Below are positions 3,940 to 38,167 of a stretch of 42,041 nucleotides of DNA, piece by piece (position 1 is the stretch's first letter; the number at the start of each line of letters is the position of its first letter). This DNA is from an uncultured Clostridia bacterium (lineage in GTDB: Bacteria > Bacillota > Clostridia > UBA1381): NCBI GenBank assembly GCA_947585795.1, contig CANPXG010000017.1, positions 1-42,041 of the forward strand, read 5' to 3'. The translations under genes were made by a program, and so were the position numbers. Below the pieces are notes generated by a model. That model was not told the DNA's origin, made no database searches, and saw only the letters and a program-made list of their open reading frames with translations.

Positions 3940-4599
3940 CTACAGCACAAGACCGACAAACACGTTCAAAAGACGCATTATGCCGTTCATGAACGCGTTC
4001 ACGCCCGTGCCTATTATCCCGCTGAAGAAACCCGTTAATGACAGTACCGCTATGAGTATCATCGAGTAATTTTCATAGCGGAGCATCGTATAGTACGCTC
4101 TGTCCGACAGGAAAAGTCCGAGTACCTTCGAGCCGTCAAGCGGCGGTATGGGAATTATGTTGAATATCATAAAACAGAGATTTCTCACCGCGAGCGCGCT
4201 CAAAATCATACCCGACACATCTGTCACCTTCGTCATACCGGGCACGAATTTTTGATTTACCACAAATATCACCGCATATATGAGCAGCGACAAAAACGCC
4301 ATCACGAGGTTTGCAAGCGGTCCCGCCGCGGCGGTGAGCGCCATACCGCGCTTTTGATTTTTATAATACCTCGGATCTACCGTTACAGGCTTCGCCCAAC
4401 CGAAGCCCGTGAATATCATAAGCAACGTACCCACAAGGTCGAGGTGCGCGAGTGGGTTAAGCGTGAGCCTGCCGTTAAAGCGCGGCGTGGGGTCACCCTG
4501 CTTCGTCGATACCCAAGCATGGGCAAGCTCGTGACCGGTGAGCGCGATAAGCGTTATCGGCACGTTTATAAGTATATCTAACAAGTTAAATCTCAACAT
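3940..4599 (-). CDS. site-2 protease family (M50) membrane metalloprotease
   Basis: 219 residues with several hydrophobic segments. The zinc site HELAH (about residues 24-28) lies in the first membrane helix, and the second motif NIIPIPPLDGSKVL (about residues 146-159) supplies the NPxPxxDG-type aspartate. Both are needed for intramembrane proteolysis and both are intact. This is the short YwhC/YdeX-like S2P subgroup with no PDZ domain, commonly found just before scpA in Clostridia. Substrate unknown. It is the first gene of the scpAB-ytfIJ operon: a promoter lies at 4635-4663, and GGGAG is placed 9 bases before the start. Confidence 0.93.
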   Translation of the reverse strand: MLRFNLLDILINVPITLIALTGHELAHAWVSTKQGDPTPRFNGRLTLNPLAHLDLVGTLLMIFTGFGWAKPVTVDPRYYKNQKRGMALTAAAGPLANLVMAFLSLLIYAVIFVVNQKFVPGMTKVTDVSGMILSALAVRNLCFMIFNIIPIPPLDGSKVLGLFLSDRAYYTMLRYENYSMILIAVLSLTGFFSGIIGTGVNAFMNGIMRLLNVFVGLVL

Positions 4600-11988: not shown

Positions 11989-12570
11989 TTAATACCGTCG
12001 GAACGACTGTATCAGCTTTTCGATTTCACCCAAAGGACAAGTCATGAATGCGGACATTATGCACGCGCCCGACGCGCCGGCTCGGCGGACGGACGCGATG
12101 TTATCGGGCGCTATGCCGCCTATGGCGTATACGGGAACAGTCACGCTTTCGCACACTTCCCCAAGAAAATCAAGTCCGCGCGGCGCAAGACCCTTTTTGC
12201 AGTCGGTCGCGAAAATATGTCCCGCGACAACGTAGTTCGCGCCCATTCCCTGCGCCTCGCGCGCCTCGTTTGCGGAGTGCACCGACGCGCCGACCGTGTC
12301 AAAATCACGTCTTACGCTCGGGTTTTCACACAGCGTTTTTATCGGCAAATGTATTTTTTTTACGCCCAGTTCCTTGGCGGCTCCGATGTACGTGTGCAAA
12401 ATCACGTCCGCACATTCCTGTACGGCGCTATGCGCAATTTCCTTGTATTTTGCCTCGCTCAAATCCTTTTCACGCAAAATGATCGGAACATTTTGTTCCG
12501 ATATTTTTTTTATACGCTCCGAAAAGTCGGAGCAAAGCTTTCTGTTCGTTACGCAAATAATTTTAAACAT
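11989..12570 (-). CDS. tenI: TenI-like thiazole tautomerase (ThiE/TenI family)
   Basis: 193 residues with a TIM-barrel ThiE/TenI pattern: CVTNRKLC, ILREKDLS, GASVHSANEAREA and VYAIGGIAPDNI. Two features point to TenI rather than ThiE: the segment GHIFATDCKKGLAPRGLDFL closely resembles the TenI signature, and the ThiE substrate motif HLGQ-D is replaced by IHLPIKTL. TenI converts the thiazole made by ThiG to its aromatic tautomer. Automatic annotation would probably call this thiamine phosphate synthase. It is the last gene of the thiazole operon and its start overlaps thiH by 8 bp, so it is translated with it. No thiM, thiD or thiC lies nearby. Confidence 0.8.
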   Translation of the reverse strand: MFKIICVTNRKLCSDFSERIKKISEQNVPIILREKDLSEAKYKEIAHSAVQECADVILHTYIGAAKELGVKKIHLPIKTLCENPSVRRDFDTVGASVHSANEAREAQGMGANYVVAGHIFATDCKKGLAPRGLDFLGEVCESVTVPVYAIGGIAPDNIASVRRAGASGACIMSAFMTCPLGEIEKLIQSFRRY

Positions 12571-13714
12571 AGATATAGTCGCTCATTACGGGCTGCAAGC
12601 CCTGTCTTTCTATCGCCTTAAATACCTCGTCCACGTTCCTGCCGTCGGATATTTCAAACTGCTCGTCACCCTTTTTGTTGCCCGAGTGACCGCCTATGCC
12701 GACATCTACGCCGGCGCTTATCTTCGTCGCGGCAATTTTTATAACGTTGTCGCGAAAACGCTCGCTCTCGCGCGTCGATATCGTTATGCTCGCGAACGGC
12801 ATGAATATCCTGTACGCGCACACTACCTGAAGAAGCTGCGGCTCGTGCACGTCCTTCGGGTTTATTTTGTCGTTGTTTATGATCGGGCGCAATCTCGGGC
12901 ACGAAAACGCTATTTCCGCGTGCGGGTACTTTTTTTGTAAAAGGTACGCGTGCATACCCGTCGCGAACGCGTCCTTTCTGAAATCGTCAAGTCCCAGCAG
13001 TGCCGCGAAGCCCACGCCGCGCATACCGCCCAGTATCGCGCGTTCCTGCGCGTAAAAACGGTACGGGAATATGCGTTTGTGTCCCTCCAAATGCAGCGTT
13101 TCGTACTTGTCGCTGTTGTAGGTTTCCTGAAACACCGTCACGAAGTCCGCGCCGCTTTTGTGCAGCTTCGCGTATTCGTCGCTGTTCATCGGGTAGACCT
13201 CAACGCCCACGACGTTAAAGTACTTTTTCGCGGCTGCGCATGCGGAGGCGATATAGTCAACGTCCGACATTTTGCGGCTCTCGCCCGTGAGTATCAGTAT
13301 TTCCTCCAAGCCCGTTTTGGAAATTTCAGCCATTTCACGCTCAATTTCCTCCTCCGTAAGACGCGCGCGGCGTATTTTGTTGTGGCAGTTAAAGCCGCAG
13401 TATATGCAGTAGTTTTCACAGTAATTCGCTATGTAAAGCGGTGTGAACATCGCTATCGAGTTGCCGAAGTGCTTGCGTGTTTCATTCATCGCGCGCTGTG
13501 CCATGTCCTCCAAAAACGGTGCTGCAGCCGGTGACAAAAGCGCGCCGAAATCGTTGGGCGTAAGTACGTCCTTTGAAAGTGCCTCCTTTACGTCGCGCTC
13601 GCTGCAGCGTTCGTAATCGTAAGCGTTCATCGCGGATATGACCTCGTCGAGCATGTCGGAGGGTATTACTTCCATACCGTCCATGTATTTCATGTGGTCG
13701 CATTTTTCTGTCAT
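12563..13714 (-). CDS. thiH: 2-iminoacetate synthase ThiH (radical SAM)
   Basis: 383 residues. ThiH cleaves tyrosine with a SAM radical to give p-cresol and dehydroglycine, which supplies the C2-N3 unit of the thiazole ring. The cluster motif is C99-x3-C103-x2-C106 in YCENYCIYCGF. Family segments such as GLEEILILTGESR, VGVEVYPMN and the YETLHLEGHKR region are all present, and GVGFAALLGLDDFRKDAF is well conserved. Use of ThiH, not the oxygen-dependent ThiO, fits an anaerobe. It lies 12 bp after thiSG and overlaps tenI. Confidence 0.96.
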   Translation of the reverse strand: MTEKCDHMKYMDGMEVIPSDMLDEVISAMNAYDYERCSERDVKEALSKDVLTPNDFGALLSPAAAPFLEDMAQRAMNETRKHFGNSIAMFTPLYIANYCENYCIYCGFNCHNKIRRARLTEEEIEREMAEISKTGLEEILILTGESRKMSDVDYIASACAAAKKYFNVVGVEVYPMNSDEYAKLHKSGADFVTVFQETYNSDKYETLHLEGHKRIFPYRFYAQERAILGGMRGVGFAALLGLDDFRKDAFATGMHAYLLQKKYPHAEIAFSCPRLRPIINNDKINPKDVHEPQLLQVVCAYRIFMPFASITISTRESERFRDNVIKIAATKISAGVDVGIGGHSGNKKGDEQFEISDGRNVDEVFKAIERQGLQPVMSDYIYV

Positions 13715-13726
13715 TTTTATCGCTCC

Positions 13727-14686
13727 TTAATCTCTCAAAAATCCCGTAAGCGGTGACGACGCTCTCGCTCCGCCCTCGACAATTCCGCCCATGCCCGCAA
13801 GGTACGCTTCGCGTCCCGCTTCTATAGCCTTCCTGAACGCGCCCGCCATTGCGCTTACATCTCCGGCGGTGGCTATGGCGGTGTTTGCCATTACCGCGGC
13901 TGCGCCCATTTCCATAGCCTCGCACGCCTGTGACGGTCTGCCTATGCCCGCGTCAACGATCACCGGCAGGTCGATCTCGTCTATGAGTATTTTTATAAAT
14001 TCCTTTGTGCAAAGTCCTTTGTTTGTGCCTATCGGTGAGCCAAGCGGCATTACGCACGCCGCGCCGGCGTTTTGTAAGTCGCGGGCGAAGTTTAGGTCGG
14101 GGTACATGTAAGGCATTACGACAAAGCCCTCTTTCGCAAGAATTTCCGTGGCTTTAAGAGTTTCGTAGTTGTCGGGCAGGAGGTATTTTGTATCGCGTAT
14201 CGCCTCTATTTTGACGAAGTCGCCGCAGCCCGTTTCACGCGCAAGACGCGCTATTCTTACCGCCTCGTCCGCGTTTCTCGCGCCGGACGTATTCGGAAGG
14301 AGCGTCACGTTCTTTGGTATATAGTCAAGTATGTTCGCGGTTTCGCCGCCTCGTGCGCGGCGCAGCGCAAGCGTGATTATCTGTGCGCCGGCGTTTTCAA
14401 CGGCGGCTTTTATCAGTTCGAGTGAGTACTTGCCCGAACCTAAAATAAAGCGCGACGTGAACTCGTGACCGCCGAGTACGAGCTTGTCCTCGGGCGCTCC
14501 GCCGCCCATAAAATGTACTATTTCTATAACGTCGCCGTCGTTTACGGCTTGAGTGTCGTAGTCCTCCTTTTTTATGATCACGCCGTTTATCTCCACGGCT
14601 ATTACCTCGCGCCTGTAGCCGTACTTTTCGAGAAGCGCGTTAAGAGTTTTGGTGCTTTCACATTCCTGACCGTTTAATGTAATCAT
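13727..14686 (-). CDS. thiG: ThiS-ThiG fusion: sulfur carrier joined to thiazole synthase
   Basis: 319 residues. Residues 1-63 are a complete ThiS ([19 protein letters not shown] to [11 protein letters not shown]), and ThiG runs from about residue 66 to the end without a stop. ThiG joins deoxyxylulose phosphate, dehydroglycine and sulfur into thiazole phosphate. Its Schiff-base Lys159 (GDFVKIEAI), [14 protein letters not shown], and [21 protein letters not shown] are present. Normal ThiS ends in free Gly-Gly, adenylated by ThiF and turned into a thiocarboxylate; here Gly61-Gly63 are followed directly by [10 protein letters not shown]. The reading frame is clean, with no sign of a lost stop. 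AGGAGG lies 6 bases before the ATG at 14686; an upstream GTG at 14791 is in the promoter. First gene of thiSG-thiH-tenI; no thiF. Confidence 0.95.
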
Positions 14687-14702
14687 GGTTTTCCTCCTTA
14701 AT

Positions 14703-14757
14703 AAAAAAGTTACACAAAGAAGCACTACGCCCGTGGTGGTGTACCCCTTCGTGTAAC
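14703..14757 (-). terminator. terminator-like hairpin in the thi leader (attenuator candidate)
   Basis: On the minus strand GTTACAC and GAAG pair with CTTC and GTGTAAC (11 bp, a 3-base bulge), with a partly paired 24-base loop, followed at once by TTTTTT (14703-14708). The thiSG ribosome binding site (14693-14698) is only 5 bases further. The leader of about 87 bases lacks the TPP riboswitch core (no CTGAGA, no GGATAAT-like arm). Confidence 0.65.
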
Positions 14758-14779
14758 CTGTGGTTTCACTCTGTATGGT

Positions 14780-20304: not shown

Positions 20305-20380
20305 TAATTCTTATGGATATTATATACATTAGGCGGGTAATATATATTAAAAATTACATTTTTCAAAGGAAGTGGTCGCA

Positions 20381-21442
20381 TTGACGCTGTCGGAATTAAA
20401 GGAGGATTTTTACAAACGCTACCTCCCTTCCTCGAATTACCTTCACTATACCGAAAACGGGATATTGTGCCCGCTTTTGGGTCATCCGAAATTGGATGAT
20501 GCTCCGTCCGTCAGCTGCGCGCTGTCGATGGGGGTGCGTATGTTTGCGCGCGCGCTCGGCGGTGAGGTCATAAAGGTACAAAACCACGCGTCGGACAAGT
20601 ACCTTACGTATAATTTTTCCGATAAGCTTGCGCCGCGACGCGGTATCGACGCGGAAACGATACGTCTTATACGCGCGCTCGGCACGGAAAATCTTAAGGG
20701 CGCGGAAATACTTTACGAGTGCTCTGTACCCGAATTTTTGCCGCGCAGAGAGGTTTTTTCGCTGGCGCTCGTAAGGTCGCTGATGAAAGTAAGCAATATC
20801 GAGGCGGACATATTAAAAACCGCCGCGATAGCGTCGCTCGGTAAAAACACGAACGTCTGTCTTGCGCTCTTGGCGTCGCGCGGCGGTTACTGCACGCATA
20901 TATCGTCCGGCGCGCCGAAAAATTACCCTCTGCCGCTTACCGGCTACAAAATCGTGTCCGCGCACTGTATAGAAAAAGATATTGACCGTTCGCAGCGCGT
21001 TAAATACGCCTTTGGCGTTATACGGCGCATGTACCCGCACATTACGTCTATCGCGGAGGTTACGGAGGATATGTTTACGGGCGCGAAGGATATGATAAAG
21101 GATAAAACGGCGGCGCGGTATATGTATCATCTCGTAAAGGAGAACTCACGTATGGAAAAAGCGCTTGACGCGCTTAAAAAATGTAACGTTAAAACACTTT
21201 TTGACGAAATGAATAAGTCGCAAAGGTCTATGGAAGAGTACTGGAACGCGGGCAAAGAGCACGCGTTTCTCGCCCGCTGTGCGCGCGGTATTCAAGGCGT
21301 GGCGGCTGTACGCTTTTGGGAAAACGGTATTATCGCCGTGACGGAGGAGGATAAAATCGACTACGCAATAGGTATGATACGCGACGGATTTGAGGAAAAT
21401 ATCGGGTATCAGCCGACGTTTTGCGTGTCGGAAACGGTATAA
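20381..21442 (+). CDS. galactokinase-like protein lacking catalytic motifs
   Basis: 353 residues. The C-terminal 180 residues align with galactokinase in order: YPLPLTGYKIVSAH, then YMYHLVKENSRMEKALDALK (the HxxxENxRVxxA region), a FDEMNKSQRSMEEYW segment matching the MNxSHxSLRxxY region, GVAAVRFWENGIIAVT and the closing YQPTF. But the sugar-binding GEHTDY is replaced by LGHPKLDD, no GLSSSA ATP loop is present, GIMDQ with the catalytic Asp is missing, and TGAGFGG is gone. So it is most likely not a kinase. AAGGAAG lies 8 bases before the TTG at 20381; a GTG at 20372 is too close. It is transcribed away from yhbY, with galT 3 kb downstream in opposite orientation. A regulatory or structural role is a guess. 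Confidence 0.75.
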   Translation: MTLSELKEDFYKRYLPSSNYLHYTENGILCPLLGHPKLDDAPSVSCALSMGVRMFARALGGEVIKVQNHASDKYLTYNFSDKLAPRRGIDAETIRLIRALGTENLKGAEILYECSVPEFLPRREVFSLALVRSLMKVSNIEADILKTAAIASLGKNTNVCLALLASRGGYCTHISSGAPKNYPLPLTGYKIVSAHCIEKDIDRSQRVKYAFGVIRRMYPHITSIAEVTEDMFTGAKDMIKDKTAARYMYHLVKENSRMEKALDALKKCNVKTLFDEMNKSQRSMEEYWNAGKEHAFLARCARGIQGVAAVRFWENGIIAVTEEDKIDYAIGMIRDGFEENIGYQPTFCVSETV

Positions 21443-36999: not shown

Positions 37000-37746
37000 T
37001 TACTTATTTCCGCACGCGGCGCAATCACCGTCCGTGGGAACGTGTACCTTGCGAAACTCCTGTGTCAGCGCGTCATAAGTTAAAAGCGCGCCCGTAAGCG
37101 GTTCACCCGCGCCCGTCAGGTACTTGATAGCCTCCATAGCCTGCAGGCTGCCTATAACGCCCGGCACGGCTCCGACCACGCCCGGCGCGGACGGAAAAGC
37201 GTCCTTCGGCGGCGGATTTTTAAACACGCACCTGTAGCACGCGCCGTGATTTGGCACATACGTCATAAGCTGACCTTTAAAACCGCTTATACCCGCGTGA
37301 GTGAACGGTTTACCCGCCTTCACACACGCGTCGTTTATGAGAAATTTCGCGTCGAAATTATCCGTGCAGTCAAGCACAAAATCATAGTCCTTTATTATAT
37401 CGTAAATATTATCCTCAGTGACAAATACGCGGTACGTTTTTACCGTAACGTCGGGATTTATCCGCTGCATTTTCTCCTTTGCGGACTCCACCTTCGCCCT
37501 GCCCGCGTCACACGTCGTATGAATGATCTGCCGCTGTAAATTTGACACGGACACCTCGTCCGCGTCGGCTATTCCGACCGTGCCCACGCCGGCGGCAGCG
37601 AGATATAGTGCGGCGGGTGAACCGAGTCCTCCCGTTCCTATTATGAGCACGCTCGACGAGAGCAGCTTTTTCTGACCTTCCTCGCCTATCCCGTCAAGCA
37701 CGATATGCCGCGCGTACCTTTCCTTCTGTTCACTTGTAAGCTCCAT
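37000..37746 (-). CDS. HesA/MoeB/ThiF-family E1-like adenylating enzyme
   Basis: 248 residues. Such enzymes adenylate the Gly-Gly end of a ubiquitin-like sulfur carrier. Visible are the nucleotide loop IIGTGGLGSPAALYLA (GxGGLG, about residues 36-42), the NLQRQI Arg finger, the catalytic DCTDN region (about 126-130), and zinc Cys at 170, 173, 242 and 245 (CYRC, CAAC). The Cys that ThiF-type enzymes carry just before GVVG is missing (AFPSAPGVVGAV), so sulfur transfer would need another protein; the enzyme may act only as an adenylase, like MoeB. It overlaps the JAMM protease by 17 bp and is last in its operon. No moaD or thiS-like gene is beside it; the only carrier in the window is the ThiS part of thiSG. 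Confidence 0.92.
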   Translation of the reverse strand: MELTSEQKERYARHIVLDGIGEEGQKKLLSSSVLIIGTGGLGSPAALYLAAAGVGTVGIADADEVSVSNLQRQIIHTTCDAGRAKVESAKEKMQRINPDVTVKTYRVFVTEDNIYDIIKDYDFVLDCTDNFDAKFLINDACVKAGKPFTHAGISGFKGQLMTYVPNHGACYRCVFKNPPPKDAFPSAPGVVGAVPGVIGSLQAMEAIKYLTGAGEPLTGALLTYDALTQEFRKVHVPTDGDCAACGNK

Positions 37747-38167
37747 TTTTCCTTTGTCCTTCTTCCGTCACGACCGCTTCCTCAGCCGCTTCTCCGTCTT
37801 TTACACGAAACGACTTTATCACGGGCTTACCCTTGGCGAGCGATATGATCACGTAGCTTGCGCCTTCATCGTGCGCAAGACGTATGTCTTCCCTCGACGG
37901 TATCGGCGGTGACGCGGGGTGCGAATGGAAATTACCAAGCGGTGTTATCCCCTTTTTACGCATATCTCTCACCGCGTCAAGCTGAGCGTGAACGTCTATG
38001 GAAAAATGTTCGCGCGATCGGTCGATATTTTCAAGGGGATATATGTCCGTGACCTCTTTTGCGCCGTCCGATATTATCCCGCCGATAAGTCCGCACACCT
38101 CATACGGTGCGCCGCTTTCGGCGCAGCGTATCAACTCGGTACAAAGACACTTCGGTATTTTGAGCAT
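37730..38167 (-). CDS. JAMM/MPN+ metalloprotease (M67 family)
   Basis: 145 residues, one compact JAMM domain. The zinc ligands and catalytic residues of the JAMM signature are all present: Glu23 (EVCGLIGG), His81 and His83 (NFHSHPASPP), Ser91 and Asp94 (PSREDI), with the correct HxH-x7-S-x2-D spacing. In prokaryotes such proteases trim C-terminal extensions from ubiquitin-like sulfur carriers or cut the carrier-target bond, and are commonly encoded beside an E1-like enzyme, as here (17-bp overlap). No signal peptide, so cytoplasmic. The natural substrate is not encoded adjacent; the fused ThiS-ThiG is a candidate by inference. Confidence 0.93.
   Translation of the reverse strand: MLKIPKCLCTELIRCAESGAPYEVCGLIGGIISDGAKEVTDIYPLENIDRSREHFSIDVHAQLDAVRDMRKKGITPLGNFHSHPASPPIPSREDIRLAHDEGASYVIISLAKGKPVIKSFRVKDGEAAEEAVVTEEGQRKNGAYK

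Follow-up and report, generated by a model that had tools for sequence, protein, structure and literature searches.

A JAMM protease and an E1-like enzyme without a transfer cysteine as candidate maturation system for a ThiS-ThiG fusion in an uncultured Clostridia bacterium

When a 42,041 nt stretch of DNA from an uncultured Clostridia bacterium (the window) was analysed together with the draft genome to which it belongs (G000; 2.54 Mb, 86.5% complete) and with related genomes, the pattern of genes pointed to a JAMM protease that would cut a ThiS-ThiG fusion (ThiSG) after its GGG motif and to an E1-like enzyme, encoded by the overlapping gene, that would adenylate the freed ThiS for ThiG and ThiH; we put the probability of this reading at about 0.78. 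The genes, the motifs, the fusion junction, the phylogeny and the co-occurrence described below were all observed in the sequences.

Results

The JAMM and E1-like genes

The window encodes a JAMM/MPN+ metalloprotease of 145 aa (37730..38167, (-) strand; PF14464, E 3e-21), a candidate pro-ThiS processing protease, and a MoeB/ThiF-like E1-like adenylating enzyme of 248 aa without transfer Cys (37000..37746, (-) strand; PF00899, E 1.8e-84). The two genes share 17 bp (37730–37746), and the initial annotation of a complete JAMM gene overlapping an E1-like gene was confirmed by the open reading frames, the Pfam matches and the intact motif. This motif, E-x(n)-HxH-x7-S-x2-D, is complete (E23, H81-S-H83, S91 and D94) and its residues E23, H81, H83, S91 and D94 are invariant across 35 aligned relatives. 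An AlphaFold2 model of the protease (pLDDT 92.6) has its nearest solved fold in a JAMM from Desulfitobacterium (2KKS; TM 0.86, 49% identity) and is also near JAMM1 from Pyrococcus with and without the SAMP2 carrier (PfJAMM1-SAMP2, 5LDA, TM 0.80). The modelled fold matches those of active JAMMs, and the protein is a predicted zinc-dependent isopeptidase/peptidase.

The E1-like enzyme has kept its ATP and zinc motifs (GTGGLGS 37–43, NLQRQ 69–73, DCTDN 126–130, CYRC 170–173 and CAAC 242–245). Its best solved match is ThiF from E. coli (PDB 1ZUD), and in the alignment of the two the sequence FPSAPGVVG (PSAPGVVG being residues 185–192) replaces NCRTAGVVG of ThiF, so that the transfer Cys before GVVG is missing, as had been claimed; the loop is two residues shorter than in relatives. 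With the NCBIfam models the protein scored below the ThiF equivalog cut-offs (TIGR02356, 259.9 vs 275.25 bits; thiF_fam2, 88.8 vs 152.2) and above the cut-off of the MoeB subfamily (PRK05690, 273.2 vs 266 bits). A function of the pair as MoeB for molybdopterin was nevertheless rejected because no MoaD partner was found in the draft genome, where PF02597 at E ≤ 1 matches nothing but the ThiS part of ThiSG.

Among the neighbouring genes a penicillin-binding protein, transketolase halves and a 179-aa lipoprotein-like ORF were recognised by sight, the last giving no match in NCBIfam. Sight inspection found no sulfur-assimilation genes among those adjoining the pair, no CysM or CysO beside it, and no E2-like gene in the translations of the neighbouring ORFs. 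Further along the window a 356-aa ORF (20372–21442, (+) strand) has no Pfam match; its C-terminal part is galactokinase-like (NCBIfam, 7.6e-16, below cut-off).

A search of the draft genome with PF00899 returned, in addition to the E1 of the pair, a MoeB-like E1 with Cys on contig C11, a protein on contig C24 called TcdA-like after its top-scoring NCBIfam model, although the score falls short of the cut-off, and two sub-threshold matches. The earlier account of a Cys-less E1 thus stood, with the correction that a second, Cys-bearing MoeB-like E1 exists in the genome. The gene on C11 (locus L009, 9979–10791) has its Cys in the sequence VSDCSQFGVLG and a recombinase-like gene nearby (by sight), and no ThiS partner for it was found in the window genome. 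On contig C86 (locus L002, 754–1203) there is also a second, divergent JAB-domain protein, adjoining a zinc-ribbon-like membrane protein (by sight).

The ThiS-ThiG fusion and its leader RNA

The fusion (13727..14686, (-) strand) is 319 aa long and holds both domains in one ORF, ThiS as residues 1–63 (TIGR01683, 2.2e-20) and ThiG from residue 64 (PF05690, 6e-100). It starts with MITLNG at the ATG at 14686, with aaggagg ahead, and a longer ORF with a GTG start was considered less likely. The ThiS part ends HFMGGG, directly followed by ThiG, so that the GG is kept; the junction residues Gly61-Gly62-Gly63 are encoded at 14498..14506 ((-) strand), and the proposed cut after Gly63 would correspond to the boundary between 14498 and 14497. 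ThiS needs a free C-terminal carboxylate, and in ThiSG this is tied up. In an AlphaFold2 model (pLDDT 88.1) two confident domains were obtained, with residues 60–63 under pLDDT 50, which would fit an exposed site of cleavage, although low confidence of a model is no proof of flexibility.

Downstream of thiSG lie the genes for ThiH, 2-iminoacetate synthase (12563..13714, (-) strand; TIGR02351, 1.2e-158), and, following it, a ThiE/TenI-like protein (11989..12570, (-) strand; PF02581, 5.7e-35; TenI model 1.1e-34, below its cut-off). No thiF is present among these thi genes of the window. The JAMM-E1 pair is located 22 kb from thiSG, outside the thi operon, with a similar spacing in the close relative G027. 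That no MoaD/ThiS gene stands beside the pair in the window, and that the only ubiquitin-like protein there is fused to ThiG, both proved correct, the fused domain being the sole ThiS domain detected in the whole draft genome.

A terminator-like leader RNA was identified upstream of thiSG (14693..14772, (-) strand; covariance model match 2.6e-22, the model having been built from five copies of which the window is one of the seed sequences). It consists of a conserved hairpin and a U-run behind a TTGACA/TACAAT promoter (by sight). With the model, 56 matches (E ≤ 1e-3) were obtained, spread over 55 of the 89 sources, among which some genomes are represented twice; by their coordinates the matches are mostly situated just upstream of thiS. 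In the alignment fitted to the model, compensatory changes are seen across 67 distinct rows. A search of Rfam with the leader gave no match at gathering score. The leader was at one stage regarded as an unlisted element, but it has the same architecture as the HMP-PP riboswitch in the description given in PMC6478431; it is therefore probably an HMP-PP (thiS motif) riboswitch, and no novelty is claimed for it. At locus L298 a TPP riboswitch is found just upstream of the leader.

Carrier-E1-JAMM modules in relatives

The statement that JAMM and E1 lack a partner carrier holds for the window genome but not for many relatives, where the same JAMM is found with an own ThiS-like carrier and an E1 bearing the Cys (VPTCKQAG and the like). 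The carriers of these modules end with (F/Y)MGGG and at least one further residue. The initial annotation had named a moaD/thiS-like gene pairing with JAMM-E1 in relatives as evidence against its proposal; such a gene does occur in relatives, and in the window genome it is gone. As JAMM and E1 are accompanied by a carrier of their own in these relatives, the pair did not originate as a system for ThiSG, and given these triads the idea that the missing carrier makes the pair unique in kind was discarded. A pair without its carrier, in a genome where no other carrier was found, fits a re-use for ThiS.

The neighbours of the module in G007 include a Cys/Met-metabolism PLP enzyme, TusA and a sulfite reductase; G036 has the PLP enzyme and a protein like the reductase of G007. 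In the E1 tree (51 rows, none of them from the six loci L461, L464, L465, L376, L379 and L381) the window E1 falls inside the module clade (25 rows, support 99/96), in which a Cys-less set of seven rows is nested (98/89; G000, G027, G024, G008, G016, G515 and G497). The pair of the window thus descends from a ThiS-E1-JAMM sulfur-assimilation module (HcyS/F/D-like) that has lost its own carrier.

The Cys-less E1s of G031 and G037 were placed near the seven-row set without a resolved position (for G031 a separate reading was used, the entries of G031 and G206 in the E1 motif listing being wrong matches). A tenth Cys-less row, G507 (locus L256), is long-branched and of unsure place outside the module clade, because of which the Cys-less label needs two changes on the tree; many independent losses of the Cys were rejected, as about two suffice. 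The possibility that the G507 row is a wrong ORF was also rejected, since it is a real 252-aa Cys-less E1 ahead of thiS-thiG. No module carrier was found in the flanking stretches of the Cys-less E1s (for G515 covering 1.5 kb on each side), and the only ThiS near any of them is the thiamine ThiS of G507, directly behind the E1 and ahead of ThiG.

Carriers can also be found fused to the E1 itself. ThiS-like carriers joined to the N-terminus of E1 via a GG junction, with JAMM nearby, were seen at L328 (G296), L336 (G206), L378 (G222) and L379 (G302), and these are probably other carriers needing the same cut; in G222 and G302 the join is made via (P)AMAGG, a sequence close to AMAGG and MGGG at the ThiSG junctions. 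In G238, G318 and G433 the carrier-E1-JAMM module is located beside thi genes, with JAMM ~3 kb from ThiG, and ThiS ends GGGA in G238 and G318 and GGG in G433. At two loci (L131, 6596–8503, and L133, 215–2113) one ORF adjoining the carrier-E1 genes combines a Cys/Met-metabolism PLP enzyme with an AraC-type HTH. The module JAMM at L131 (~4240–4490; G007, contig C38) is without its N-terminal half, and a complete second JAMM is present on contig C72.

Co-occurrence of ThiS tails and JAMM

The C-terminus of ThiS was read beside ThiG in three samples: a family sample (31 genomes with readable ThiS out of 70 searched), a named sample (50 of 80 loci searched for JAMM, 12 already in the family set and 18 unsearched, 6 of these without a readable ThiS end) and a phylum sample (84 loci, 82 with ThiS, drawn from the 134 further ThiG-positive genomes in a set of 398). 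G522, G529, G532 and G277 were dropped as duplicates; G305 and G373 have no ThiS near ThiG, G461 was left out as its ThiS is >3 kb off, and the rows of G238 and G268 were taken from their module loci, their thi loci being tailed as well. After de-duplication 158 genomes remained, 135 untailed and 23 tailed or fused, the latter comprising 12 with ThiS fused to ThiG and 11 with tails of 1–5 residues (A, C, SC, SI, SK, CR, AFA, SGA and SVAFR after GG(G)).

A strong JAMM was found in 23/23 genomes with tailed or fused ThiS vs 39/135 with ThiS ending at GG(G) (Fisher 2e-11; here and below the p-values assume independent genomes, an assumption that does not hold). Since loss of ThiF could explain both tail and JAMM, the test was repeated among loci without thi-locus ThiF, giving 23/23 tailed vs 27/62 untailed (p 3e-7). 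The main test disregarded weak JAB matches; they occur in 14 genomes (G014, G015, G034, G047, G065, G069, G499, G500, G502, G519, G523, G529, G536 and G419, with G529 already removed as a duplicate), and when counted as positive the numbers became 23/23 vs 52/135 (p 4e-9). Divided by sample, JAMM was present in 8/8 tailed vs 1/23 untailed (family), 6/6 vs 10/41 (named) and 9/9 vs 28/71 (phylum). Loci of the phylum sample had been selected according to JAMM status, covering 40 of the 41 genomes with a strong JAMM and 44 of the 93 lacking one; this raises the JAMM rate among untailed loci and means that a short tail in any of the other 49 JAMM-negative genomes would have escaped notice. The presence of JAMM in 39 of the 135 untailed genomes implies that it has other jobs or substrates.

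The tailed genomes represent 15 genera or single genomes. When the label was followed on a ThiG tree (155 rows, quick method; G046, G047 and G056 have no ThiG in it) 14 changes were counted, with a minimum of 8 set by the well-supported branches. A thi-locus ThiF was seen at 0/23 tailed vs 73/135 untailed loci, and all 73 separate ThiS with ThiF in the same locus end at GG(G). Counting backwards from the last glycine of GG(G), the fourth residue is Val in 73/73 ThiS with ThiF in the locus vs Met in 22/23 tailed ThiS (the exception, G493, has Val) and in every listed module carrier; untailed ThiS without ThiF are mixed (Met in 15/62).

Fusion genomes and Cys-less E1s

Fusions were found in 13 genomes, all with GG at the junction and all with JAMM: five of the family (G000, G016, G027, G007 and G008), a Selenomonadaceae MAG (L249) and seven distant GC-rich genomes (G149, G188, G277, G222, G302, G399 and G404). 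In the phylum sample the search for fusions relied on match range and on open frames over ~330 codons, by which diverged ones could be missed. The co-occurrence check suggested by the initial annotation came out in its favour, JAMM being present in 13/13 fusion genomes (12 after de-duplication) and in 11/11 genomes with tailed ThiS, and no ThiSG genome without JAMM was met within the phylum sampled. ThiS-ThiG fusions of Proteobacteria and Rubrobacter, mentioned in the passages of Iyer et al. 2006 cited here (PMC1779556), lie outside this phylum.

In several of these genomes few other candidates are left. G027 (92% complete) has no ThiS other than ThiSG, no JAMM apart from the E1-linked copy and, at E ≤ 0.001, just two ThiF-family matches, the Cys-less E1 and one TcdA-sized protein; G008 (83% complete) gives the same picture. 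The seven distant fusion genomes (97–100% complete) each have a single ThiF-family match at E ≤ 1e-15, within ~2.2 kb of JAMM, and in G222, G302 and G404 a cysteine-synthase-like gene (by sight) adjoins JAMM. In G019 (87% complete) tailed ThiS and JAMM are present and no E1 was found.

Nine genomes contain both a Cys-less E1 and a thiamine ThiS. The six with tailed ThiS (G000, G027, G016, G008, G031 and G497) keep JAMM, and in the three with untailed ThiS (G037, G515 and G507) none was found. G507, an uncultured Selenomonadales, has its Cys-less E1 directly ahead of thiS-thiG (L256, 180–1900), and its untailed ThiS ends FMGGG. In G024 (81% complete) a Cys-less E1 of the same clade (L138, 2195–2956) was identified and no ThiS, ThiG or JAMM was found; it is either an orphan or the assembly is incomplete. 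Loss of the Cys is not required for serving ThiS, as G505, G517, G520 and G521 have Cys-bearing E1s together with untailed ThiS, no thi-locus ThiF and no JAMM.

Discussion

According to the proposed mechanism ThiSG would be a precursor in which JAMM hydrolyses the peptide bond after Gly63, yielding ThiS with a free ...MGGG carboxylate and a separate ThiG. The E1 encoded beside JAMM would then bind the freed ThiS and adenylate Gly63 with ATP, whereupon sulfide or a cysteine-desulfurase persulfide may attack the acyl-adenylate directly to give ThiS-COSH, from which ThiG and ThiH would build the thiazole. The direct sulfur step is proposed because the E1 has no transfer Cys, together with what is known of MoeB and ThiF chemistry. 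Thiamine synthesis may have taken over the E1 and protease of the module as ThiF disappeared from the thi operon, and the carrier of the module would have been lost later. Cleavage, cut site, adenylation, the direct sulfur step and this order of events are what we infer; the earlier suggestion that JAMM frees ThiS and the E1 adenylates it is supported at the level of the genomes.

It could instead be imagined that ThiSG functions as an intact fusion, or that a housekeeping protease cleaves it, and that JAMM and E1 are kept for another carrier or for trimming of amino-acid adducts, as HcyD or Mec+. Most module JAMMs examined do have a carrier of their own beside them, in G007 as part of a sulfur-assimilation operon, and the JAMMs of the 39/135 genomes with untailed ThiS would also agree with such a role. 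We nevertheless regard it as unlikely, as no other ThiS-family carrier was found in G000 and G027, the link between tail and JAMM persists among loci without ThiF (23/23 vs 27/62), no JAMM was found in the Cys-less-E1 genomes with untailed ThiS (G037, G515 and G507) and the fusion blocks the carboxylate that ThiS chemistry demands.

Even if JAMM processes ThiSG, the activation of ThiS might be left to a different E1, for instance the Cys-bearing MoeB-like protein on C11, whose presence in the window genome speaks for this, as does G019 with its tail and JAMM and no E1 found. G027 and G008, on the other hand, carry ThiSG and JAMM-E1 without such a second E1, the E1 linked to JAMM has intact ATP and zinc motifs, and in G507 it is a Cys-less E1 that directly precedes thiS-thiG, all of which makes this division of labour improbable. 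Least probable, to the point of being hardly credible, is a ubiquitin-like system of conjugation and deconjugation attaching ThiS to proteins, a role proposed in 2006 for JAB-associated E1s from neighbourhoods of JAMM and E1 (PMC1779556, in the part cited): the E1 lacks the Cys needed by a thioester route and, by sight, no E2-like gene was noticed beside the pair. The reading that JAMM cuts ThiSG and the paired E1 adenylates ThiS is therefore preferred.

This arrangement can be compared with several known systems. In E. coli ThiF has a transfer Cys and its ThiS ends at Gly-Gly; ThiF-ThiS (1ZUD) provides the closest solved E1 and the same type of target, but the E1 of the window lacks that Cys and its ThiS, instead of ending at the glycines, is fused. 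HcyS/HcyF/HcyD of Wolinella form a protein-thiocarboxylate homocysteine pathway, which the modules of G007 and G036 resemble. The window pair shares the E1 clade and the JAMM family with the carrier-E1-JAMM modules, whose relatives keep a carrier ending EFLYFMGGG-x, and differs from them by having no carrier, no sulfur-assimilation neighbours and no Cys in the E1. The sulfur-assimilation neighbourhood of such modules is tabulated in Iyer et al. 2006 (PMC1779556).

The direct biochemical precedent is DR0402, a JAMM from Deinococcus that, in the experiments cited from PMC8832034, cuts a MoaD-MoaE fusion and leaves a C-terminal Gly. There, as proposed here, a ubiquitin-like sulfur carrier is released by JAMM from the enzyme with which it works; that case concerns molybdopterin synthase and the biochemistry has been done, while for the thiazole synthase we infer the cleavage. 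A shared E1 has its precedent in mycobacteria, where MoeZR serves both MoaD and CysO (PMC3227635, part cited). The CysO-MoeZ-CysM-Mec+ system of the same source likewise has a carrier, an E1 and a JAMM-type protease, with one E1 for more than one carrier, but Mec+ removes cysteine from CysO and the system has a rhodanese-bearing E1 and CysM, neither of which is present in the window.

In one sentence Iyer et al. 2006 (PMC1779556) suggested that a ThiS or MoaD joined to another protein may be released by JAB domains, and in the passages cited they report no JAB gene in thiamine operons; a co-occurrence test, ThiS tails and a link to E1 are not part of those passages and are presented here. No paper on JAMM cutting ThiS-ThiG was found in a literature search blunted by 'ThiS' being read as 'this'.

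Extended across Bacillota, the findings lead us to lean, if only slightly, towards the view that thiamine ThiS has repeatedly been made as a pro-protein, with a tail of 1–5 residues or fused to ThiG, and is matured by a JAMM borrowed from an amino-acid sulfur module; Met in place of Val before the glycines would then mark carriers handed over from ThiF to a borrowed E1 and JAMM, and the maturation of ThiS would be a proteolytic checkpoint shared by sulfur assimilation and vitamin B1 synthesis. The E1-JAMM pair would thereby be seen passing between sulfur pathways. A one-sentence speculation is turned into the sharp prediction that fused or tailed ThiS needs JAMM, which would explain how a ThiS-ThiG fusion can work although the carrier needs a free C-terminus, and, if true, a ubiquitin-type protease would gain a predicted essential step in the synthesis of vitamin B1 in gut bacteria.
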